Below are positions 3,725 to 32,203 of a stretch of 33,875 bases of DNA, one piece after another. Made by a program: the position numbers and the translations under genes. The stretch lies in NCBI GenBank assembly GCA_017532085.1, contig JAFXJT010000023.1, positions 1 through 33,875 of the forward strand, read 5' to 3'. Under the pieces are notes generated by a model that saw only the letters and a list, made by a program, of their open reading frames with translations, was not told where the DNA came from and made no database searches. Each line of letters begins with the position of its first letter. Within the stretch, counting starts at the first letter, position 1. The DNA comes from Oscillospiraceae bacterium (GTDB taxonomy: Bacteria > Bacillota > Clostridia > Oscillospirales > Ruminococcaceae).

Positions 3725-5176
3725 TTATAAACCGTTGTATACATTACCTGCGAACATTTCCTTGCCCTTGGCACGGAACATCTCGGAAATGGTTACAACC
3801 TGCCAGCCGTTCTGCTTAAAATACTTGCAAAGGGTTTCCACAGCTTCGGCAGTAGACGTATAATTCTCGTGCATCAGAACCACTTTTCCGTTCAGAGAAC
3901 CATTCTGGGCTGCAGACTGAATCTTATTGATCATATCATTGGCAGTTGCATGATTCCAGTCACCGCTGTCGAGGGCACAGTTCACAAGCGGAACCGGCAG
4001 CGTATTCTTCACAGTATCATTGACAGCAAGGTAAGGTGGTCTGACTAAGAAGTCCTGCTGACCGGTCAATCGGCGCAGAATATCAGCAGTCTGATTGTAT
4101 TCATTCATAATCTGATTGGGCGAAAGCTCCGTCAGTTTAGGATGAGTAAACGTGTGATTCGCGATCTCAAATCCACGCTGCTGTGCTTGCAGGATTTCAT
4201 TTTCATTGCTGCTGTTGATACGATTGCCCCAATAGAAGAAGGTTGCATGGAAGCCGTTATTGGTCAATGCATCATGAATTCGGGCAGCAGCTGTGCCATT
4301 GAGTCCGACAGGACCGTCATCAAAGCTCAGTGCAACCATAGGCTTATTGGGATCAATCCAACTGATATCAGCTTGATTGTTCCACTGACCGGGCTGCAAA
4401 CTGGGTGCCGTCGTTGTTGTGGTGGTTGTTGTCGTGGTGGTTGTAGTTGTCGTAGCAGTCAGTTCCGGATAAAGGAAGAACTGACGAAGCATCGAAAGAT
4501 CCACACCGGAAATGATATGATCTTGATTCAGATCCGCTGCTTTGCCGTTGATCTGACAATCATCTCCGCAAAGCCATTCGGTAAGCAGAATCACATCATT
4601 GCGATTGACAGCATTATCTTGATTCACATCACCTTTGAGATACACAGCACAGCGCTCAGCAGTAACGGCATCCAGATAAAAATCGCATAAACTCTCTGTT
4701 GTTTCTACATACAGAATCTCATTGGAAGCATTGGAAGGCAATGTATAACAATCATTGAAAAGAACCGTCCATTGCCCACAAGGAACGCTTTGCGTGTCAA
4801 TTTGCAGATATGAAGTTGTACCATCCGCAGTATTATACTGCAGCGACAATTGCATGGTCACATTACCGGAGCCAACCGGCATCACTGCACAGGAAAATGC
4901 ATAATCGGCACCATCCACCCAGCCATCGCCCAGGGAGATTGCAGCGCCGTTCCATGCGTTTGTTCTGCCGGATGTAAGCAAGCTGTGTGACCCTTCAAAG
5001 GCAAACGCATTGGTTTGTGCTACCGCAGCATCGCCTCTGCCGATAAAGCCCTCAGTACCGGACTCAAAACCAATGGAAAGCGCATCACCGGCGCCGGATA
5101 CATAACCGGTTAATGCAGAAAGATATACAATACTTGCGCCAAGAAATGCAGCAAGGTACTTTCGGAATCGCAGCAT
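3725..5176 (-). CDS. Secreted CBM22-dockerin-CE4 polysaccharide deacetylase (acetylxylan esterase type)
   Basis: 483 residues from ATG 5176, chosen because AAAGGGTG lies 5-6 bases upstream; an ATG at 5194 has no such site. Parts in order: signal peptide (about 1-30); a CBM22-like xylan-binding module (about 33-173, with GFIGRG and WNGAAISL); a type I dockerin (about 180-238) with calcium loops DVNQDNAVNRND and DLNQDHIISGVD; a poly-Thr linker (about 241-257); and a NodB/CE4 domain (about 275-475). CE4 motifs are SFDDGP (metal ligand and base), NHTFTHP (metal-binding histidines), RPPY, DSGDW and LMHE. The family removes acetyl groups from xylan, chitin or peptidoglycan; CBM22 and dockerin point to xylan on a cellulosome. 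The dockerin is internal rather than terminal. The gene is monocistronic with its own promoter and terminator. Confidence 0.9.
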   Translation of the reverse strand: MLRFRKYLAAFLGASIVYLSALTGYVSGAGDALSIGFESGTEGFIGRGDAAVAQTNAFAFEGSHSLLTSGRTNAWNGAAISLGDGWVDGADYAFSCAVMPVGSGNVTMQLSLQYNTADGTTSYLQIDTQSVPCGQWTVLFNDCYTLPSNASNEILYVETTESLCDFYLDAVTAERCAVYLKGDVNQDNAVNRNDVILLTEWLCGDDCQINGKAADLNQDHIISGVDLSMLRQFFLYPELTATTTTTTTTTTTTTTTAPSLQPGQWNNQADISWIDPNKPMVALSFDDGPVGLNGTAAARIHDALTNNGFHATFFYWGNRINSSNENEILQAQQRGFEIANHTFTHPKLTELSPNQIMNEYNQTADILRRLTGQQDFLVRPPYLAVNDTVKNTLPVPLVNCALDSGDWNHATANDMINKIQSAAQNGSLNGKVVLMHENYTSTAEAVETLCKYFKQNGWQVVTISEMFRAKGKEMFAGNVYNGL

Positions 5177-5208
5177 AATTTCACCCTTTTTCATTTTATA
5201 ATCAATCT

Positions 5209-10695: not shown

Positions 10696-11982
10696 ATGCG
10701 TATTGCAAAACGCATTCTTACACTGCTTTGTGCCTGCGGTATGCTGCTCCCATATACAGGATGCAGGCAAAACAGCAGCAGCCATGTTACGACAAATCAG
10801 ATGGAATCTGCAGTATCCTCCGCCATCGTCACAGAGCCATCCTGGACTCCCGCAGATCCTACCCTAAATCTGCCTTCGCTTCAGCTTGGCTATACGACTG
10901 AAGAAATGTGCAAGCGTGCGATGATAAATACAGGCAATCAAGCACGACTTGCCAATGTAATGAAAAAAGCTGCCGACAACAAAAAAGTCACAATCGGCTG
11001 TATCGGCGGTTCTATCACACAGGGTTCCGGTGCCGCCTCCTCTAGTGAAAACTATGCGTTTTATCATGTGAGCTGGTGGGTAAAGCAATTCCCTCAAAAT
11101 GCAGCTCTGAACTTTGTCAATGCAGGCATCGGTGCGACAGGCAGCTATATTGGCGTGCATCGTGCAGCAGAGGATCTGCTTTCACAAAAACCGGATGTGG
11201 TTGTAGTGGAGTTCTCTGTGAATGATACCGATGCGGCATTCAATTACAAAACCTACGACAGTCTGATACGAAAAATACTCCAGGCAGACAATCAACCGGC
11301 TGTGATCTTACTGTTCATGTGTCAGGAGAATAACACCACCTTGGCAAAAACGCATATGCAAATCGGTGAAGCATATGATCTTCCCATGATCAGCTATCAG
11401 AATGCTGTGATGCCTGAAATTGAGAAGAACACTTTCCTTTGGAGTGATATTGCCGTTGATCATATCCACCCCAATTCCAACGGTCACGGCATCATCGGAG
11501 AGCTGCTCTGGAACTACTATAATTCTGTCTATGCGCAGCTCGATACCATTGATACAACTCTGCTCACCTTTGACACAGAATCCCCTACCGGCGATCTGTA
11601 TGCCGATGCAGAGCTGCTCAATGCCAGCGAAATCATGCCGATTGCCAACACCGGATTTCAAAATCAAACAGTCATGTATCAATTCCCCGATAACTGGGTA
11701 GCGAATACTGAAGGAGCCAGTCTTACATTTGAAGTAGAAGCTCGTAATATCGGTATTCTATATCAGCGGACCATCCATGGCAAAAGCGGTCAATATGAGG
11801 TATATGTAGACGGTACTTTAACCAAAACGCTGGATGGAGATTTCAAAGGCGGTTGGGGCGATTATGCGGAAGCAACCGAAGTATTTGCCTCAGACAAAAA
11901 AACCAAACACAAAATTGAAATCAAAGGAAAAGAAGGCAGCACCGCTTATCAATTTGCAGTGCTGGGACTCTTAATCAGCTGA
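10696..11982 (+). CDS. SGNH/GDSL-type lipoprotein hydrolase, probable carbohydrate esterase
   Basis: 428 residues from ATG 10696, preceded by GGAGGT at 5 bases. The N-terminus is a lipoprotein-type signal with a probable lipidated cysteine C23 (LLPYTGC), followed by a Ser/Thr-rich spacer. The catalytic domain (about 95-290) shows block I GCIGGSITQGSGA with nucleophile S106, the oxyanion region NAGIGATGS, block III VVVEFSVND and block V DHIHPNSNGHG with the Asp-His pair. A C-terminal beta-rich domain (about 315-428, FEVEARNIGILYQRTIHGKS) could be a substrate-binding jelly roll. The family cleaves esters, often acetyl or acyl groups on polysaccharides. It lies 22 bp after nadC in the same direction, but has no obvious link to NAD synthesis. 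The substrate cannot be told from sequence. Confidence 0.8.
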   Translation: MRIAKRILTLLCACGMLLPYTGCRQNSSSHVTTNQMESAVSSAIVTEPSWTPADPTLNLPSLQLGYTTEEMCKRAMINTGNQARLANVMKKAADNKKVTIGCIGGSITQGSGAASSSENYAFYHVSWWVKQFPQNAALNFVNAGIGATGSYIGVHRAAEDLLSQKPDVVVVEFSVNDTDAAFNYKTYDSLIRKILQADNQPAVILLFMCQENNTTLAKTHMQIGEAYDLPMISYQNAVMPEIEKNTFLWSDIAVDHIHPNSNGHGIIGELLWNYYNSVYAQLDTIDTTLLTFDTESPTGDLYADAELLNASEIMPIANTGFQNQTVMYQFPDNWVANTEGASLTFEVEARNIGILYQRTIHGKSGQYEVYVDGTLTKTLDGDFKGGWGDYAEATEVFASDKKTKHKIEIKGKEGSTAYQFAVLGLLIS

Positions 11983-11995
11983 GTGCCATATGCAT

Positions 11996-12033
11996 ACAGC
12001 CATCCGTTCTGTTGTATCAGAAGGGATGGCTGT
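11996..12033 (+). terminator. Hairpin after the nadBC-esterase unit
   Basis: ACAGCCATCC and GGATGGCTGT form a 10-bp stem with an 18-nt loop, followed by a pyrimidine-rich but weak T stretch (AGTCTTCTCT). Probable terminator of the plus-strand unit. Confidence 0.55.
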
Positions 12034-12054
12034 AGTCTTCTCTATCTATATAAG

Positions 12055-12086
12055 AAAAACAGGCTGCATGTTTCAGAGTGCAGCCT
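12055..12086 (-). terminator. Intrinsic terminator of the dgt-dnaG-rpoD operon
   Basis: AGGCTGCA (12061-12068) pairs with TGCAGCCT (12079-12086) around a 10-nt loop; on the minus strand it is followed by GTTTTTC. It lies between the convergent esterase and sigma genes and may work in both directions. Confidence 0.8.
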
Positions 12087-12109
12087 ATTTTGATGCAAAG
12101 GATTATGGA

Positions 12110-13195
12110 TTATTCCAGATAGTCTCTTACTTTTTTGCTTCTGCTTGGATGACGAAGCTTTCTGAGTGCCTTGGCTTCAATCTGACTGATACGCTCATGA
12201 GTCACATCAAAAGCCTTTCCGACTTCTTCTAAGGTACGTGCTCTGCCATCATCCAGACCAAATCGCAGCCGAAGCACCATTGCTTCCCGTTCCGTTAATG
12301 TACCCAGCACTTCATTGAGCTGCTCCTTGAGCATCAGATTGGAAGCCGCCTCTGTCGGAGCCGGCGCCTGCTCATCGGGAATAAAGTCTCCCAGATGACT
12401 ATCCTCCTCTTCACCGATGGGTGTTTCCAACGAAACAGGATCTTGTGCAATCCGCATGATCTCACGCACTCTGTCTACGGGCATATCCAGCCGATCCGCA
12501 ATCTCATCCGCAGTCGGATCATGTCCGTTTTCATGAAGCAGCTGACTGGATACCTTTTTGACCTTGGTAATGGTCTCAACCATATGCACGGGAATGCGAA
12601 TGGTACGAGCCTGATCCGCAATCGCACGGGTGATCGCTTGTCTGATCCACCAAGTAGCATAGGTAGAAAACTTAAATCCTTTTGTATAGTCAAATTTTTC
12701 TACCGCTTTGATCAGACCAAGATTGCCCTCCTGAATGAGATCCAGAAACTGCATTCCGCGGCCAACATACTTCTTGGCGATGCTTACCACAAGACGCAAA
12801 TTCGCTTCGGAAAGACGTTTTTTGGCATAAGAGTCCCCTGTCTGAATCCGCTTGGCCAGTTGCGTTTCTTCTTCCGCAGTCAGCAAAGGTACACGGCCGA
12901 TTTCTTTCAGATAGATCTTAACCGGATCATCAATGGCAATGCCTTCCGTAGCAAGCGCCACTTCCAGATCATCGGCAAGATCAGCATCCATACCGATTTT
13001 CAAATCCAAGACATCGATGCTGTAATCATCCACGATTTCAATGTGCAATGCACTGCAAGTATCGTAAAAGCTGTCCATCTGCTCCGAATCGAATTCCAGT
13101 TCTTCAAAGGTATCATTCATTTCCCGCAATGAAATTTTACCATTGGCTTTGGCCATCTCCAGCAATTGATCGTATTTTGTTTTATCGCCGGGCAT
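12110..13195 (-). CDS. Primary-type sigma-70 factor, downstream copy, with altered -35 recognition helix
   Basis: 361 residues from ATG 13195, chosen for AAGGAGGA at 7 bases; an in-frame codon at 13216 has no such site. It has a region 1.1-like segment (about 8-50), region 1.2 ([17 protein letters not shown]), region 2 ([53 protein letters not shown]), region 3 ([16 protein letters not shown]) and region 4. In region 4.2 the recognition helix reads VTHERISQ: H333 and S337 replace the two arginines of the usual VTRERIRQ (E. coli R584 and R588). The tail [13 protein letters not shown] is normal. It lies 74 bp after a second, upstream sigma gene of the same type, a clear tandem duplication. Which copy is the housekeeping factor is uncertain. 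Confidence 0.93.
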
Positions 13196-13269
13196 ATCAC
13201 GTCCTCCTTCACACACGACTGAGTTTTCTTTCTCTCTTTTGATTGATTACGCTGCCTGATATACAACAA

Positions 13270-14352
13270 TCAATTGCAATATCCGCTCAAATATCTGTGA
13301 CGGCGATTCCGCAGCTTACGCATCGCTTTGGCTTCGATCTGACGAATACGCTCTCTGGTCACTTCAAATGCCGCACCGACTTCCTCCAAAGTATGCGTCT
13401 GACCGTCATCCAAACCAAAACGCATCCGCAGAACCAATGCTTCACGCTCGGTTAAGGTGTTCAGAAGATTATCCAATTCTTCCTTCAGAATGCTGTTGGA
13501 TACTGCTTCCACAGGATCAATTGCTTGTTCATCGGGAATAAAATCGCCAAGATGGCTGTCATCCTCTTCGCCAACCGGTGTTTCCAGAGAAACCGGATCA
13601 TATGCAATCCGCATAATCTCACGCACTTTATCCACAGGCATCTCAAGACGTTCAGCAATCTCTTCGGGTGTTGGATCGTGACCATTCTCATGGAGAAGCT
13701 GGCTGGAAATCTTCTTGACCTTTGTGATGGTTTCCACCATGTGCACAGGAATTCGAATGGTGCGGGCCTGATCGGCAATTGCACGAGTGATCGCCTGTCT
13801 GATCCACCAAGTTGCATAGGTTGCAAACTTGAATCCTTTTGTATAATCAAATTTTTCAACAGCCTTGATCAGACCGAGATTGCCTTCCTGTATCAGATCC
13901 AGAAACTGCATTCCTCTGCCCACATAGCGCTTTGCAATACTGACTACCAATCGAAGATTGGCTTCAATCAGACGCTTTTTGGCAAAACTATCTCCTGCCT
14001 TCATTTTTTGGGCAAGCTGTGTTTCCTCCTCTGCTGTCAGAAGCTGCACGTGACCGATCTCTTTGAGATAAATCTTAACGGGATCATCTACGCCAATGCC
14101 TTCTGTGGAAAGCGCAAACTCCAGATCATCCGAAAGATCCGCATCAATTCCCATCTTCAGATCCGCATCATCGGTGCTGTAATCGTCGATGATCTCAATG
14201 TGCATACTGCTGCAGCTATCATAAAAGCTGTCAATCTGCTCAGGATCGAATGCCATACCTTCGAAGGCATCATTCATCTCTCTCAGCGAAATCTTGCCGC
14301 TTTCCTTTGCTTTTTCAAGCAGGCTTTGATACTTGTTCTTTTCATTTGACAT
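13270..14352 (-). CDS. rpoD: Primary-type sigma-70 factor, upstream copy, with divergent C-terminal tail
   Basis: 360 residues from ATG 14352, preceded by AGGAGG at 8 bases. Regions 1.1, 1.2, 2, 3 and 4 are all present, and the protein is closely similar to its downstream neighbour over nearly the whole length. Its recognition helix is the canonical VTRERIRQ, so it is the better candidate for the housekeeping factor, directing RNA polymerase to TTGACA/TATAAT promoters. The end is odd: after EAKAMRKLR it reads [12 protein letters not shown] in place of the usual HPSRS...YLE tail. I checked the other frames and see no simple frameshift that restores the normal ending. The gene follows dnaG by 80 bp, as in the common dgt-dnaG-rpoD order. 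Confidence 0.93.
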
Positions 14353-14369
14353 TGCTACATCCTCCTAAA

Positions 14370-14432
14370 ACAGGGTACTCTTATATTTCTATTTTTTATA
14401 CCATACAGAAAGTTTGTGCCGTACCCTTCAGC
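14370..14432 (-). promoter_or_regulatory. Possible internal promoter upstream of the sigma genes
   Basis: The dnaG-rpoD gap contains, on the minus strand, TGGTATAAA, an extended -10 without a clear -35, flanked by the 6-bp inverted repeat GGGTAC/GTACCC. It could let the sigma genes be transcribed independently of dnaG. The call is tentative. Confidence 0.35.
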
Positions 14433-16187
14433 TTATCCATTTTTCTGTATTCGCTTCTTCACGAACAGCGCTGCAAAATCCTCATCACTGAGCGAATCCG
14501 CAGGAGCCTGTCCTTTATCGCATGCCTTCAGCACCGCAATCGCATCCAAAACAGAGTTTTCGCCAATATCCACATCGGCATATCTGGCTTCAATTCCTGT
14601 GATTCTTCCCATTTCATCCGGATGGAAGCAATCGGAAAAAATCGACAAGGAAAACTGCTGCATCTGCGGCATACGGTTTAGGTATTCCCGATATACACGC
14701 TGATAAAGCTCTGTGACAAATTGTTCCGGTTGAATGCGTTCCCGAATCACTTCCATATCATCAGGATGCCGGAACAAATAACAAAGGATCAGTTCCTCTG
14801 CCTTTGCTTCCTTCCGATGGGAAACTGCCTGCGGATTCACAGAATCCTGCATCAGCGGCAGTGAGGTAATTGCCTGCCACGACTGCTTCTTCTCACGAGA
14901 CCGCCGTTTTGCAATCTCACGATTCACCTGTGCAGTCAAGAGCTGCGCATCCACCTCCTGCTCCTTGGCAAGATTGGAAATATAGATCGAGCGCTGCATC
15001 TCATTTTCAATGGAAGCCAAAACAGATATGGCTTTCTCAATCAAAGTCACTTTTCCGTCAACAGCCTCCGGATCCAGGCCATCCTTACAGCGTTCCAGTG
15101 CATATTGCACTGCATCATCCGCCTCTTCCAGCAGCAGTCGGAACCGTCCGGCACCAAACTTCTTGATATATTCATCGGGATCCTTTGCATCGTGGAGCCT
15201 GAGTATTTTCGGCTGAATCCCCACAGCACGCAAAAGATTCACCGCCTTGATGGTGGCATTCTGTCCTGCGGTATCGCTGTCATAGGCAATCACAACCTCT
15301 TCGGCATATTGCCGCATCAGCCGACATTGATCGGCCGTCAGAGCCGTACCGAGAGAAGCAACGACATTATCGAAACCCGCTTGATGAATTGCTATGACAT
15401 CCATATAGCCTTCTGCAAGAATCAAGCGCTTGGACTGGGATTTTTTCGCAAACTGCATGGAAAACAGATTTCTTCCCTTTTTGAACACCGGTGTGTCGGA
15501 GGAATTAAGATATTTTGGCTGACCATTGGGATCAATGGTACGTCCGCCAAAAGCGATCACGCTGCCTCTGAGATCAAATATCGGAAAGATCACACGATCT
15601 CGGAACCGATCAAAAAGCGTTCCTTTCTGTGATCGGCTGCATAAATTGGAGGCAATCAGCTCATCCTCAGTATAGCCCAGCGCCTTCATGGCACGCAGCA
15701 GACCATCCCATTCACCGCCTGCAAAACCCAGACCGTATTTTTTGATAATCTTCGGATCCAAGTTTCGTTGTGCCAGATACTGCAAGCCACGCTTATCGGA
15801 TCCGCATAATTGTTTGTAATAATACTGTGCTGCATTCCGATTTAATTCCAGCAGCCGGGTACGGCGTTTGCTTTCACCATTATCACGCTCCTCAGTTGGC
15901 ACAGACAGTCCTGCGTTTTGTGCCAAAGTCTGAACAGCATCCATATATCCCAGACCTTCGATCTTCATCAGAAATGTGATGACATCTCCACCGGCGTGGC
16001 AGCCGAAGCAATAGAAATGCGGATCCTGTGTTCCGGCATAAACCACACAAGATGGCGTTTTCTCAGAGTGAAACGGACACTGACATTTCAGCAGCGAGCC
16101 TGCACGCACAAGCTGTACATAGCGTCCCATGACGGTTTCAATTGGATTCGCCTGCTTGAGCTGGTATAAAAATTCCTGTGGCAGCAT
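14433..16187 (-). CDS. dnaG: DNA primase
   Basis: 584 residues, a normal bacterial length. It makes RNA primers at the replication fork and binds the replicative helicase through its C-terminus. The N-terminal zinc-binding domain has C37, H40, C60 and C63 (CQCPFH and FYCFGC). The catalytic core contains KYGLGFAGGEWDGL, FPIFDLRGSVIAFGGRTID and KKGRNLFSMQFAKK, and a TOPRIM fold starts at LILAEGYMDVIAI (about 260) with VIAYDSDTAGQ supplying metal ligands. AAAGGAGGG precedes the ATG by about 10 bases. It follows the dgt-like gene by 35 bp and precedes the two sigma genes, so all four probably share a transcript. Confidence 0.97.
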   Translation of the reverse strand: MLPQEFLYQLKQANPIETVMGRYVQLVRAGSLLKCQCPFHSEKTPSCVVYAGTQDPHFYCFGCHAGGDVITFLMKIEGLGYMDAVQTLAQNAGLSVPTEERDNGESKRRTRLLELNRNAAQYYYKQLCGSDKRGLQYLAQRNLDPKIIKKYGLGFAGGEWDGLLRAMKALGYTEDELIASNLCSRSQKGTLFDRFRDRVIFPIFDLRGSVIAFGGRTIDPNGQPKYLNSSDTPVFKKGRNLFSMQFAKKSQSKRLILAEGYMDVIAIHQAGFDNVVASLGTALTADQCRLMRQYAEEVVIAYDSDTAGQNATIKAVNLLRAVGIQPKILRLHDAKDPDEYIKKFGAGRFRLLLEEADDAVQYALERCKDGLDPEAVDGKVTLIEKAISVLASIENEMQRSIYISNLAKEQEVDAQLLTAQVNREIAKRRSREKKQSWQAITSLPLMQDSVNPQAVSHRKEAKAEELILCYLFRHPDDMEVIRERIQPEQFVTELYQRVYREYLNRMPQMQQFSLSIFSDCFHPDEMGRITGIEARYADVDIGENSVLDAIAVLKACDKGQAPADSLSDEDFAALFVKKRIQKNG

Positions 16188-16222
16188 CCTGATTCACCCT
16201 CCTTTCATCAGCGGATCAAGCG

Positions 16223-17215
16223 TTATCGCACATCCCAGCAGCGGGGAACAAATATTTTTTCATATGTCCAGATGGCATAATCATCACTCATACCGGCAAT
16301 ATAGTCACAGACCGCACGATCCATATCCATTCGTTCTGCAATACGCTGATATTCCTTCGGCAGAGCATCAATATGTTTGATAAAATAATTGTACAAGCGA
16401 ATGACAAGCTCCTGCGCTTTGGGTTCCTCTTGTTTTGCGGCAGAATTGCTGTATATATTCTCACGCAAAAACGTATGAAGCGCATCATGTGCTTCCTGAA
16501 TTTCCCTGGTCATGCGAATGACATCGGGGCCATTGGCGATGACAGAAGAAATCATCGCAGTAATTCTGCGGCTTTTGGTATCACCAAGCGTCTGCACACA
16601 ATCTCTCGGCAGCTCGCTTTTCTTAAGAATCCCACCACGAATGGCATCGTCAATATCATGATTGATATAAGCAATCCGATCTGCAACACGAACAATATTA
16701 CCCTCTCTGGTAGAAGCAATGCGATTGGTATGACAGGCGATACCGTTCTTGACCTGCATCGTAAGATTCAAACCCTTGCCATCCTTCTCGATATAATGCA
16801 CAACACGCACACTTTCCAGATAATGCTGATAGCCATAGGGACAAACCTGATCCAGCGCCGCCTCGCCGGCATGACCAAAGGGAGAATGCCCCAGATCATG
16901 TCCCAGCGCAATGGCCTCTGTCAGATCCTCGTTCATATGCAGTGCACGCGCAATGGTGCGGGCGATCTGCGAAACCTCAAGCGTATGGGTCAGCCGTGTA
17001 CGATAATGATCACCAATGGGCGAAAGAAAAACCTGTGTTTTTCTCTTCAAACGACGAAATGCCGAAGAATGCAGGATCCTGTCTCTGTCACGCTGAAATT
17101 CTGTACGATAGGGACATTTCACTTCACGTTTGCTGCGCTTTGCTTTTACAGATGGACAGGCAAATTGACTCAAATTACCGATTTCCATAATCTCAATTTG
17201 TTCTCGAACTGTCAT
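16223..17215 (-). CDS. dgt: dGTPase-like HD-domain phosphohydrolase
   Basis: 330 residues from ATG 17215, chosen because GAGGA lies about 7 bases upstream; the ATG at 17221 would sit almost on that site. HD-domain metal ligands are visible: RLTH (H77), GHDLGHSPFGHAGE (H106, D107), and NHDIDD (about 185-190). The N-terminus PYRTEFQRDRDRILHSSAFR is the signature of deoxyguanosine triphosphate triphosphohydrolases, which split dGTP or other dNTPs to nucleoside and triphosphate and so tune dNTP pools. Its place before dnaG is common in Clostridia and fits a link with replication. True substrate specificity cannot be read from sequence. Confidence 0.92.
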   Translation of the reverse strand: MTVREQIEIMEIGNLSQFACPSVKAKRSKREVKCPYRTEFQRDRDRILHSSAFRRLKRKTQVFLSPIGDHYRTRLTHTLEVSQIARTIARALHMNEDLTEAIALGHDLGHSPFGHAGEAALDQVCPYGYQHYLESVRVVHYIEKDGKGLNLTMQVKNGIACHTNRIASTREGNIVRVADRIAYINHDIDDAIRGGILKKSELPRDCVQTLGDTKSRRITAMISSVIANGPDVIRMTREIQEAHDALHTFLRENIYSNSAAKQEEPKAQELVIRLYNYFIKHIDALPKEYQRIAERMDMDRAVCDYIAGMSDDYAIWTYEKIFVPRCWDVR

Positions 17216-17267
17216 ACACATTCCTCGCTTTTTCTTCCTATGACCTACAGCTATTCATACGATGGGC

Positions 17268-17285
17268 ATCTATATTGATTATACA
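17268..17285 (-). promoter_or_regulatory. Possible promoter of the dgt-dnaG-rpoD operon
   Basis: Minus-strand TATAAT lies about 60 bp before the dgt start in TTTTGTATAATC. I see no good -35 at 16-18 bp, and the TGn element is absent, so this is tentative. The rest of 17286-17389 shows nothing I can name. Confidence 0.4.
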
Positions 17286-17389
17286 AAATCAACCCGCAAA
17301 AACCCTTTTTTTCGCAAGCTTCAAACAGATTTCAGCGTTATGCACAACACAAGATTCGACTCCCTTTGTAAACTAGAGGATATAACAAC

Positions 17390-17420
17390 AAAAACGGTAT
17401 CGTCATAACGATACCGTTTT
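17390..17420 (-). terminator. Intrinsic terminator of the small membrane protein gene
   Basis: AAAACGGTATCG and CGATACCGTTTT form a perfect 12-bp stem with a 6-nt loop; T runs follow on the minus strand. Confidence 0.9.
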
Positions 17421-17434
17421 ATCTTTAAAAGCAA

Positions 17435-17950
17435 TCAGGAAAACAAATCAATCATTGCAAAGCCGCCGTAAGATATAATACACATGATTACGGTAGCCAT
17501 GATCAGACCCAGGAGAATTGCAGGAACTGCCTTTTTCATTTTGATATGGAGCAGTGCCGCAATAAAAGAGCCTGTCCATGCACCGGTACCCGGCAGCGGA
17601 ATGCCAACGAAAAGCAGCAGACCCCAAAACTCATATTTTCGGATCTTCTGTGACTTTTCACCTAAAGCTCTTGCTTCCAGCCAACAGGCGAACCGCTGAA
17701 ATATCTTCACTTTACAATTCTTCATCCAATTCAGCAGCTTCTCAATAAAAAACAAAATAAATGGAATCGGCAATATATTACCGAGAATACAGACAATCAC
17801 AGCAGTCCAAAGATCGATACCAAGTAATGACGCAGCAAGCAAACCGCCGCGCAATTCCAGAATCGGCAGCATTGATATCAAAAAGACAATGACAACCGGC
17901 GGCAAACCGCCTAACGCTTCTGTCAAGGCAGTTGTAATTTCTTGACTCAT
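17435..17950 (-). CDS. Small integral membrane protein, putative small multidrug-export family (COG2426-like)
   Basis: 171 residues from ATG 17950, with GAGGG and GGGAG upstream; the frame is open further upstream but crosses the promoter. The protein is mostly hydrophobic, with about four membrane segments. Recognisable family features are ISMLPILELRGGLLAASLLG near the N-terminus, LGNILPIPFILFFIEKLL, and FVGIPLPGTGAWTGSFIAAL in the second half. The family was named for a suggested role in small multidrug export, but a transport function is poorly established. The gene stands alone between its own promoter and terminator. Confidence 0.75.
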   Translation of the reverse strand: MSQEITTALTEALGGLPPVVIVFLISMLPILELRGGLLAASLLGIDLWTAVIVCILGNILPIPFILFFIEKLLNWMKNCKVKIFQRFACWLEARALGEKSQKIRKYEFWGLLLFVGIPLPGTGAWTGSFIAALLHIKMKKAVPAILLGLIMATVIMCIISYGGFAMIDLFS

Positions 17951-26792: not shown

Positions 26793-27791
26793 TTACGCCT
26801 TTCTCAATGCAGGAATCGGTACATCACGAAGAATCTCGTCAAGCACAGAACCTACTGTCATATGATCCATTTTGGCTCTGGGATGCAAGAGAATTCGATG
26901 CGCAAACACATCCTGCAGTATAACGGCGACATCATCGGGAATGACATACTCTCTGCCGCGTGCAATGGCCACCGCCTTTACTACTGCTATCATTGCCAAG
27001 GATCCTCTGGGGCTCACACCAAGACGAATCATCGGATGTTTTCGCGTGGCCTCAGCAAGCTGAACAATATAACGGAGCATCTCATCCGCAACATGAATCT
27101 GCGCAGCAAGCTTTTGCAGCGCAATCAGCTTCTGTGGATCCACTACCTGAGCCACATCCTGCAAAGATCCGGCAGAACCACCGTTGCGAAGAATGGTAAT
27201 CTCACTTTCCAAATCCGGATATCCCATTTGCAAACAAAGCATAAAACGATCCATTTGGGATTCCGGCAGCATCTGCGTTCCTATGGATCCAACCGGATTC
27301 TGCGTTGCTATGACACAATACGGCTTCGGCATGGGATAGGTCACACCATCGACTGTGACAGCGGTTTCTTCCATCACTTCCAACAGCGCCGACTGCGTTT
27401 TCGGTGAGGTTCGGTTGACCTCATCTGCCAGCAGCAAATTACAGAACGCTACGCCCTTATGAAATTCAAACACTCCGCTTTCCTTATGATACATGGAAAA
27501 CCCGGTGATATCACTGGGCAGGACATCAGGAGTCAATTGTACTCGATGATAATCAAGGCCCAATGTTTTCGCAAATGCCAGAGCAAGTGTTGTTTTTCCA
27601 ACTCCGGGAATATCCTCCAGAAGTACATGGCCATTTGCCAGAAATGCCAATAACACTTTCAGAACAATGATGTCTTTGCCAACAATCACCTTGCGAATTT
27701 CATGCATAATTCTTTGTATCAGTTCTGTACCCTCTTGAAAAGAAATGTTTTCTGTCAATGATTCTGAACGAATGTCCGGCATTGATTTCAT
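26793..27791 (-). CDS. MoxR-family AAA+ ATPase
   Basis: 332 residues. AAA+ features: Walker A GVGKTT (about 63-68), Walker B LLLADE (about 119-124) followed by VNRTSPKTQSALLEVMEE, sensor 1 VIATQNP, and a C-terminal lid with LGVSPRGSLAM. MoxR proteins act as chaperone-like ATPases that mature or assemble partner complexes, often VWA or DUF58 proteins encoded beside them, as here. The start is slightly uncertain: ATG 27791 is very close to AAAGG, while ATG 27782 is 11 bases away from it. It is the first gene of the three-gene operon. Confidence 0.93.
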   Translation of the reverse strand: MKSMPDIRSESLTENISFQEGTELIQRIMHEIRKVIVGKDIIVLKVLLAFLANGHVLLEDIPGVGKTTLALAFAKTLGLDYHRVQLTPDVLPSDITGFSMYHKESGVFEFHKGVAFCNLLLADEVNRTSPKTQSALLEVMEETAVTVDGVTYPMPKPYCVIATQNPVGSIGTQMLPESQMDRFMLCLQMGYPDLESEITILRNGGSAGSLQDVAQVVDPQKLIALQKLAAQIHVADEMLRYIVQLAEATRKHPMIRLGVSPRGSLAMIAVVKAVAIARGREYVIPDDVAVILQDVFAHRILLHPRAKMDHMTVGSVLDEILRDVPIPALRKA

Positions 27792-30300: not shown

Positions 30301-30334
30301 GTTAGCATAATTTTCAAGAATGAAGGAGGACACT

Positions 30335-32203
30335 ATGATACAATATCGTAAATTGCTTGCTGTATTGCTCACAGCAACTTGCACAGCAATCTCTATGCCT
30401 GCAATCGTTACCTCAGGCGCTGACGATGTTCTGTATGAGACCGGCTTTGAAAATGATGAGATCGTATTCACCGGCCGCGGCGGAACAGAAGTATTGGAAG
30501 CCAGTACAGAGGCTGTACACAGCGGCGAATATGCTTTATGTGTATCCGAAAGATCACAGGGCTGGCATGGTCCACAGTTTCTCTTAGATGATCTATGCAA
30601 ACCCTTCGTGGAATATACAATCAGCGCTTGGGTAAAGAGCGAATGGTACAGTACGCTCAATCTCAGTATGGAGTATACGGACAGCAATGGTATTCGTCAA
30701 TACATGAATCTGAAATCTGCACAGGGCGATTCGTGGTTTGAGTTTTCGGATGTCAAAGTCAGCTTTACCGATGATGTGACCAATGTTTATGTCTATTTTG
30801 AAGCTTCGGATAATAAATGCAAGCTGTATGTTGATGATTTTGTTCTGAAAGCTGCACCGATTATCCCGATTCAGGACGATCTGCTTTCCCTGTCTGATCT
30901 TTATTCTGAGCATTTTATGATCGGCACCGGCATTATGAATTCGAACCTTTCTTCTCCGTCTTTCATGGATCTGGTGAAAAAGCATTTTGATCGCTCCATG
31001 ACGTTCGGCAATGAGTTAAAACCTGAAAATGTTCTGGATTTGAATGCCACACTTGCTTATATGGAGCAGAACGACGGTGATGATACCAATCCGCAGGTTA
31101 CACTTTCGGCTGCACGCAGCCTGCTGAAATATTGCCAAGCAACCAATACACCGGTCAGAGGCCATGTGCTTGTTTGGCATAGCCAAACGCCTGATTGGTT
31201 CTTCAAAGAAGGATTTTCCGATTCCGGAGAATGGGTCGATAAGGAAAAAATGCTTGTCCGCATGGAAAACTACATCAAAAATGTATTCGCAATTCTGGAA
31301 GCGGAATATCCCGACGTGAATATTTATGCATGGGATGTTGTTAATGAAGCGTTTCTGGATTCCGGTGACCCGCGCAGTCCCGGATCTGATAAAGCTTCCT
31401 CCGGTCAATCTGCCTGGGTCAAAGTATTCGGTGACAATTCCTTTATTGAACCTGCCTTTACGTATGCAAGAAAATATGCTCCTGCCGGTACAAAGCTTTA
31501 TTATAACGATTTCAATGAATACATTGAAGGAAAAATGAATGCCATCTATCAAATGGCAATGGATCTCAAAGCAAAGGGTCTGATCGACGGCATTGGTATG
31601 CAGTCACATATGGATGTAACTTTCCCCTCCGCAGCACAGTTCAAAACCGCTCTTGCAAAATATGCTACTACCGGTCTGGATATCCAAATTACTGAGCTGG
31701 ATATCACCACCAAGGATACCTCTGCTGCCGGTCTGGAAAAACAAGCACAGATGTACAGCGATATTATGGATGCTTGTGTAGAGTATTCCGATCATATTTC
31801 TGCTGTGGTTTTTTGGGGCGTTACCGATGATCAAAGCTGGCGCGGCAATCAGGTGCCTCTGCTCTTTGATGGCAGCTTCCAAGCAAAACCCGCTTATTAT
31901 GCAATCGTTGACGGCATGGAAATGCCCGATATCATAGAAACTACTACTACCACTGTAACCAATCCTTCGATTTCGGATCAACCGGATGCCAAAATGCCGG
32001 GTGATGTCAATGATGATGGTGTGATTAAAATTGATGATGTGGTGCTCATGAACCGCTATATCGGTGAAGATACCACAATTGAACTATCTGAAGCTGGCTT
32101 GCTGAACGCAAATTGCGATGGCATCAAGGGTGTTGATGCCGATGATGCGACGCATCTGCTCAAATATCTTGCCGGTCTGATTGCTATTGAGGATCTACAC
32201 TAA
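30335..32203 (+). CDS. Secreted CBM22-GH10-dockerin endo-beta-1,4-xylanase
   Basis: 622 residues from ATG 30335, with AAGGAGG at 7 bases. Parts in order: signal peptide (about 1-28); CBM22-like module (about 32-172, GFENDEIVFTGRGG, WHGPQFLL); GH10 catalytic domain (about 185-525); Thr-rich linker; C-terminal dockerin (about 555-620). GH10 residues: GNELKPENVLD, HVLVWHSQTPDWFF, acid/base E338 in WDVVNEAF, and nucleophile E454 in ITELDI. The enzyme cuts xylan backbones outside the cell. The dockerin has a normal first calcium loop (DVNDDGVIKIDD), while the second (NANCDGIKGVDADD) is two residues longer than usual. CBM and dockerin link it to the CE4 esterase at 3725-5176. Confidence 0.95.
   Translation: MIQYRKLLAVLLTATCTAISMPAIVTSGADDVLYETGFENDEIVFTGRGGTEVLEASTEAVHSGEYALCVSERSQGWHGPQFLLDDLCKPFVEYTISAWVKSEWYSTLNLSMEYTDSNGIRQYMNLKSAQGDSWFEFSDVKVSFTDDVTNVYVYFEASDNKCKLYVDDFVLKAAPIIPIQDDLLSLSDLYSEHFMIGTGIMNSNLSSPSFMDLVKKHFDRSMTFGNELKPENVLDLNATLAYMEQNDGDDTNPQVTLSAARSLLKYCQATNTPVRGHVLVWHSQTPDWFFKEGFSDSGEWVDKEKMLVRMENYIKNVFAILEAEYPDVNIYAWDVVNEAFLDSGDPRSPGSDKASSGQSAWVKVFGDNSFIEPAFTYARKYAPAGTKLYYNDFNEYIEGKMNAIYQMAMDLKAKGLIDGIGMQSHMDVTFPSAAQFKTALAKYATTGLDIQITELDITTKDTSAAGLEKQAQMYSDIMDACVEYSDHISAVVFWGVTDDQSWRGNQVPLLFDGSFQAKPAYYAIVDGMEMPDIIETTTTTVTNPSISDQPDAKMPGDVNDDGVIKIDDVVLMNRYIGEDTTIELSEAGLLNANCDGIKGVDADDATHLLKYLAGLIAIEDLH

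Follow-up and report, generated by a model that had tools for sequence, protein, structure and literature searches.

The textbook bacterium relies on a single, essential housekeeping sigma factor, and the helix with which it reads the −35 element is almost frozen. In other sigma factors, the tail that follows this recognition helix contributes to the surface recognized by activators and the α-subunit C-terminal domain. The group 2 sigma factors, namely, RpoS, the cyanobacterial SigB to SigE, and the actinobacterial Hrd proteins, are primary-like paralogs that stand beside a primary sigma factor. The closest described system to the locus reported here is the single RpoD/SigA (group 1) sigma factor of the dnaG, or macromolecular synthesis, operon. 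Single changes at R584 and R588 of Escherichia coli sigma70 are reported in the accessible part of PMC2613000. The titles and abstract openings of the literature searched, in which few subscription journals were represented, did not mention tandem genes for primary sigma factors in this group of bacteria.

Two tandem sigma-70 genes were found in the presumed dgt-dnaG operon of an Oscillospiraceae bacterium (genome G000), in the 33,875-nucleotide stretch of DNA that we refer to as the window. As the preliminary description stated, both genes are intact and lie on the minus strand after dgt and dnaG, in the order dgt, dnaG, copy A, and copy B (Table 1). We regard the two as an old, maintained, paralogous primary-type pair that specialized, a reading to which we assign a probability of roughly 0.55. 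The start of copy B had been placed at a GTG at 13216; the ATG at 13195 is most likely the start codon instead, since GGAGG lies close upstream and the resulting length is that of the homologs in genomes G006 and G013. A sigma-70 promoter scan of positions 11900 to 17500 returned 6 sites, compared with 8.7 in shuffled sequences, and zero sites both between dnaG and copy A and in the spacer between the copies; because no site was listed in the spacer, A and B are likely cotranscribed. The gene dnaG adjoins the sigma gene or genes in 9 of 10 other genomes with larger stretches read, the tenth being the cut piece of G002.

Table 1. Features of the tandem sigma locus in the window
Feature	Positions	Strand	Remarks
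Sigma copy A (upstream), 360 aa, RpoD/SigA type	13270..14352	-	−35-reading arginines intact; noncanonical C-terminal tail
Sigma copy B (downstream), 361 aa from ATG 13195	12110..13195	-	canonical tail; altered recognition helix
Copy A tail, 12 codons plus stop	13270..13308	-	replaces the usual end
Copy B CAT (His) codon	12197..12199	-	at the E. coli R584 position
Copy B AGT (Ser) codon	12185..12187	-	at the E. coli R588 position
Spacer between A and B, 74 bases	13196..13269	-	own ribosome-binding site
dnaG primase	14433..16187	-	upstream of sigma pair; same presumed operon
dgt-like HD phosphohydrolase	16223..17221	-	upstream; same presumed operon

Elsewhere in the window, positions 3725 to 5194 and 30320 to 32203 encode a dockerin-bearing polysaccharide deacetylase and a GH10 enzyme, which are pieces of a cellulosome-type, fiber-degrading outfit. 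The DnaG protein of the window is 70% identical to those of G017 and G010 and 62% identical to those of G006 and G013, an affinity that contradicts both the neighboring sigma genes and a tree of RpoB and Pnp.

Individually, both proteins belong to the RpoD/SigA kind, and the novelty is the pair. Regions 1.1 to 4 were correctly recognized in both copies: the Pfam models for regions 1.1, 1.2, 2, 3, and 4 all exceed their curated cutoffs and stand in that order. No known family of alternative sigma factors accommodates either copy, as RpoD is the best NCBIfam model for both, with RpoS and cyanobacterial sigma models scoring well below it. For TIGR02393, the model of the RpoD C-terminal domain, both copies exceed the cutoff. 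For NF006666 (RpoD; cutoff, 572 bits), copy B passes narrowly at 573.3 bits and copy A falls below at 539.9 bits. The two proteins share 79% amino acid identity over 350 residues and are, as previously noted, nearly identical in regions 2 and 3. Their divergence was said to lie mainly in region 4 and its tail; it is indeed concentrated there, but region 1.1 diverges too, and the DNA difference between the copies peaks in the two outermost 40-codon windows, which cover the leader with region 1.1 on one side and the close of region 4 on the other. A and B have in common with the RpoD/SigA of the dnaG operon the domain set, the gene place, and regions 1.2 to 3, but the window has two copies, of which A lacks the canonical tail and is under the RpoD cutoff and B lacks two −35 arginines. 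They resemble group 2 sigma factors in being primary-like paralogs; unlike in group 2, the paralog is a tandem neighbor within the dnaG operon, and in the trees it joins its own partner and near relatives.

The recognition helix of copy A, VTRERIRQ, contains all of Arg584, Glu585, and Arg588 (E. coli numbering). That of copy B is VTHERISQ, with His, Glu, and Ser at the corresponding positions; overlooked in the preliminary description, it is the most important difference between A and B. The motif filters of our script let through 139 distinct RpoD-like C-terminal halves, the two of the window included; 138 of them have Arg at both positions, and copy B is the sole exception, at both. Sequences that failed these filters, the first copies of G014 and G173 among them, were inspected separately, and those with a visible helix keep both arginines. 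The canonical end of region 4 after the helix is present in B and absent in A. Its pattern occurs in 105 of the 139 halves; the remaining 34 comprise 29 from genomes with two genes, the lone A-type copy of G015, and four loci of other Firmicutes (L117, L120, L125, and L127) whose copy number lay outside the count. G006 and G013 are the closest relatives in which the locus is present, and their single sigma genes have both the canonical helix and the canonical tail, which indicates that both copies in the window have changed.

The His and Ser positions of copy B are taken by us to be R584 and R588 in E. coli numbering. The residue list in the accessible part of PMC4943231 agrees. In the available portions of PMC2613000, R584 contacts −31, the R584A mutant prefers A:T at −31, changes at E585 and R588 relax reading at −33, and R588 makes no specific base contact in the crystal structure; the sections seen of PMC10911233 are in agreement on the reading of −33 and −31. 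As far as these sources extend, the E. coli changes are single, whereas copy B carries a natural His and Ser double change at the same two positions in a maintained paralog. Since copy B is without the two −35-reading arginines, it is doubtful that it reads the −35 element as A does, and by analogy with the published mutants, its −35 reading is likely changed.

The two substitutions, or the tail of A, might also be consensus errors of metagenomic assembly. CGT to CAT and CGT to AGT are single-base changes, and with 82 contigs and a completeness of 83%, the assembly appears to be metagenomic. The frame reads cleanly, however, and the differences of B from A and its relatives lie mainly at silent sites, so that we consider such errors very improbable. 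The pair as such is in the main not an assembly artifact, for the order dnaG-sigma-sigma recurs in other genomes.

Two RpoD-like genes were found in 24 of 30 genomes of the genus, one in 4, and none in 2. The one-gene genomes are G006, G013, G015, and G002, whose match is truncated where its contig stops; the two genomes with no sigma match (G008 and G011) have no dnaG match either. The expectation of a single rpoD at this position holds in the order, where 181 of 194 genomes with a match have one gene, but not in this genus, in which two are the rule. In the 22 other two-gene genomes apart from G014, the pair has the same locus and order as in the window and consists of an upstream A-type copy, ending in LKHYSRSKKLQGYI(D/E), and a B-type copy. 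All genus A-type and B-type copies whose helix was read keep VTRERIRQ (VTRERVRQ in the B-type copy of G042), which window copy B does not. The upstream copy of G014 (L041/L160) is very divergent, with about 50% identity to window copy B and a different C-terminal end. G015 (L036/L158), rated 96% complete, shows only an A-type sigma gene with the odd tail and no B-type gene; both roles are thus not always needed in the genus, and an odd-tailed A-type copy is apparently able to serve alone.

As the G000 assembly is 83% complete, a third, canonical copy could be missing from it, with A and B both being accessory, group 2-like factors; the two genus genomes without any match at the locus show that such gaps happen. 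A and B nevertheless occupy the standard dnaG-sigA place, none of the 30 genus genomes has a third RpoD-like match at an E value of 1e-75, and the other sigma matches in G000 are far weaker, at 67 bits or less versus 89 to 91. We consider this explanation improbable and retain that of a specialized pair.

The pair is old. Between A and B, pS is 0.736 (dS of about 3, saturated) and pN is 0.144, so that replacement sites are constrained; in 7 close A-type and 7 close B-type ortholog pairs of other genus members, dN/dS is 0.085 or less. Saturation between A and B together with the low dN/dS of the genus pairs marks these as old genes under selection. A recent duplication is rejected, as the preliminary description had supposed in not taking the pair for a recent accident.

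In a quick species tree of RpoB and Pnp (27 rows, midpoint rooted), G000 groups with G011, then with G006 and G013, and then with G014, against the other 22 rows. In three sigma trees, window copies A and B group with the genes of G006 and G013 (support, 97/82, 83/82, and 83/87), and a segment close to the end of region 1.1 is common to these four but missing from the A-type and B-type copies. The best tree does not group the window pair copy by copy with the A and B types of the genus. When copy B was held with the B type, the AU test gave a P value of 0.017 (0.009 with G006 and G013 added); when copy A was held with the A type, P was 0.060 (0.033 with G006 and G013 added); and A and B as sisters were not rejected (P = 0.38). 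LG+G4 was the model in these tests, and the meeting of long branches in the tree is a reason for caution. The data do not support simple orthology to the genus types, which is rejected for B and not clearly so for A. From the grouping and the AU tests, the window pair is probably either a separate duplication or an old pair whose bodies were homogenized; gene conversion of an old pair is possible. The tail of copy A has L-x-G-Y, as does the A-type tail, and similar ends occur elsewhere, e.g., in L045. Terminal branches are shorter for copy B (0.12 to 0.22) than for copy A (0.26 to 0.6).

In a draw of 197 genomes across the order (E value of 1e-80), two genes were found in 13, one in 181, and none in 3. 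In a tree built without the tails, the g77 pair groups together (97/96), as does the g17 pair (93/94), and the genus copies are separate from both, which implies that duplication took place at least three times. In G031, the f8 pair was grouped (99/96) in one sigma tree and ungrouped in the tail-less tree, which was built without the first copies of G173 and G014; f20, G173, and G202 had no resolved position in the trees. The copies of f20 are 0.8 kb apart, and those of G202 are on different contigs. In each two-copy lineage read, at least one copy has a changed end after the helix: besides that of the genus, these are HPTRISKFKGFR in g77, HPSRIKMFKEFGGE in f20, and, mildly, HPSRSKQLRDFYVYQKGF in f8, together with both copies of g17, G173, and G014 and one of G202. 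The tandem pair of G173 (L354) has lost the canonical region 4 tail in both copies, and six other members drawn from the genus of G173 have one gene each.

Promoters of G000 were sought in upstream regions from 749 kb of the 1,985-kb assembly, window included, as TATAAT with at most one mismatch plus the bases 17 upstream, with gene starts set by a simple script rather than by annotation. At 17 bases from the −10 element, TTGA occurs 57 times (TTGAC, 45) and TTGC occurs 40 times (TTGCA, 27), compared with means of 2.2 and 1.7 in 50 Markov resamplings. The spacing peak is sharp, and TG precedes the −10 element in most of the promoters found. TTGC is commoner in G000 than in the single-sigma genomes G006 and G013 together (62 TTGA and 12 TTGC; Fisher P = 0.0004), and its share is lower in all three of the sampled genomes that have a single canonical sigma gene, the third being G130 (9 TTGA and 2 TTGC in 80 kb). 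G003, which has an A/B pair with intact arginines, yielded 25 TTGA and 14 TTGC, and G015, with an A-type gene only, yielded 22 and 9; when these two were pooled, no difference from G000 was seen (P = 0.33). An exploratory comparison of G000, G003, and G015 (63 TTGC and 104 TTGA) with G006, G013, and G130 (14 and 71) gave a P value of 0.0005, from few, nonindependent genomes pooled after the first counts were known. Outside these tests stood 80 loci of other Firmicutes (7 TTGC and 12 TTGA), with one sigma gene each where read, as well as G011 (4 and 7; no sigma match), pooled genus loci (1 and 7), G014 (1 and 0), and G031 plus G040 (0 and 1).

The TTGC class was considered as proof of B specificity and rejected, as G003, G015, and the other Firmicutes loci carry it too; because TTGC is common where the arginines are intact, the class cannot be assigned to copy B. 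Its presence in G000 agrees with the prediction based on R584, short of proof. Promoter class agreed in 11 of 12 comparable orthologous pairs (P = 0.010), of which 4 were TTGC-TTGC, all with G003 or G015, and 7 were TTGA-TTGA, and the one discordant pair has TTGC in G000 and TTGACA in G013; this agreement may be plain descent. A sharply spaced second −35 class, (C)TTGCA(A/T)TTT with TGnTATAAT, was observed upstream of genes in G000, G003, and G015, for example, upstream of 26793 to 27791 in the window and of L279:10996-11685. In Bacillus, Spo0A touches the end of SigA region 4, and a Spo0A homolog at L275:10149-10910 has a TTGC-class promoter.

No clear functional split between TTGC and TTGA genes was seen in the 20 plus 20 that were annotated, of 97 class rows. 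This result, the near identity of regions 2 and 3, and the one copy of G015 would fit a pair kept for dosage or timing, in which both copies do the same job jointly or at different growth stages and the region 4 differences are tolerated drift. Drift sits poorly with the loss in B of arginines that are otherwise invariant while the rest of B is constrained, and with the recurrence of changed region 4 ends in pairs of several lineages; we hold such a back-up arrangement to be unlikely. Less likely still, one copy could be becoming a regulator, with B, for example, as a competitor for core polymerase or an extended −10 sigma factor that does not read −35. The absence of both −35 arginines from B and the frequent TG before the −10 element point that way, but B is the better match to the RpoD model and the slower-evolving copy in the trees.

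We therefore return to a specialized pair. A and B are old, constrained, and intact, and their region 4 changes are complementary. The sequences suggest that the housekeeping job is split between them, and we infer that promoters are divided between A and B and that the partner contacts of A are altered. Given the conservation of regions 1.2 to 3, both copies would be expected to engage core polymerase and to melt −10 elements. Copy A would still read a TTGACA −35 element while having lost the tail behind the recognition helix. Copy B would keep the tail and have a relaxed or shifted −35 reading, preferring TTGCA to TTGAC, because the arginines that read −31 and support the reading of −33 are absent, and it would depend more heavily on activators and the extended −10 element.

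More tentatively, in-place duplication of the primary sigma gene may be recurrent in the order, with the copies dividing the jobs of region 4, and the split may be complete in the lineage of the window, so that two sigma factors run the basic promoters. If so, one copy would read the usual −35 element and the other would keep the contact tail and read TTGCA, and the organism would have no single housekeeping sigma factor. A lineage with two sigma factors that lack distinct parts of region 4 would be a natural experiment on how promoter reading might be uncoupled from activator contact, for which the order supplies several independent duplications as test cases.
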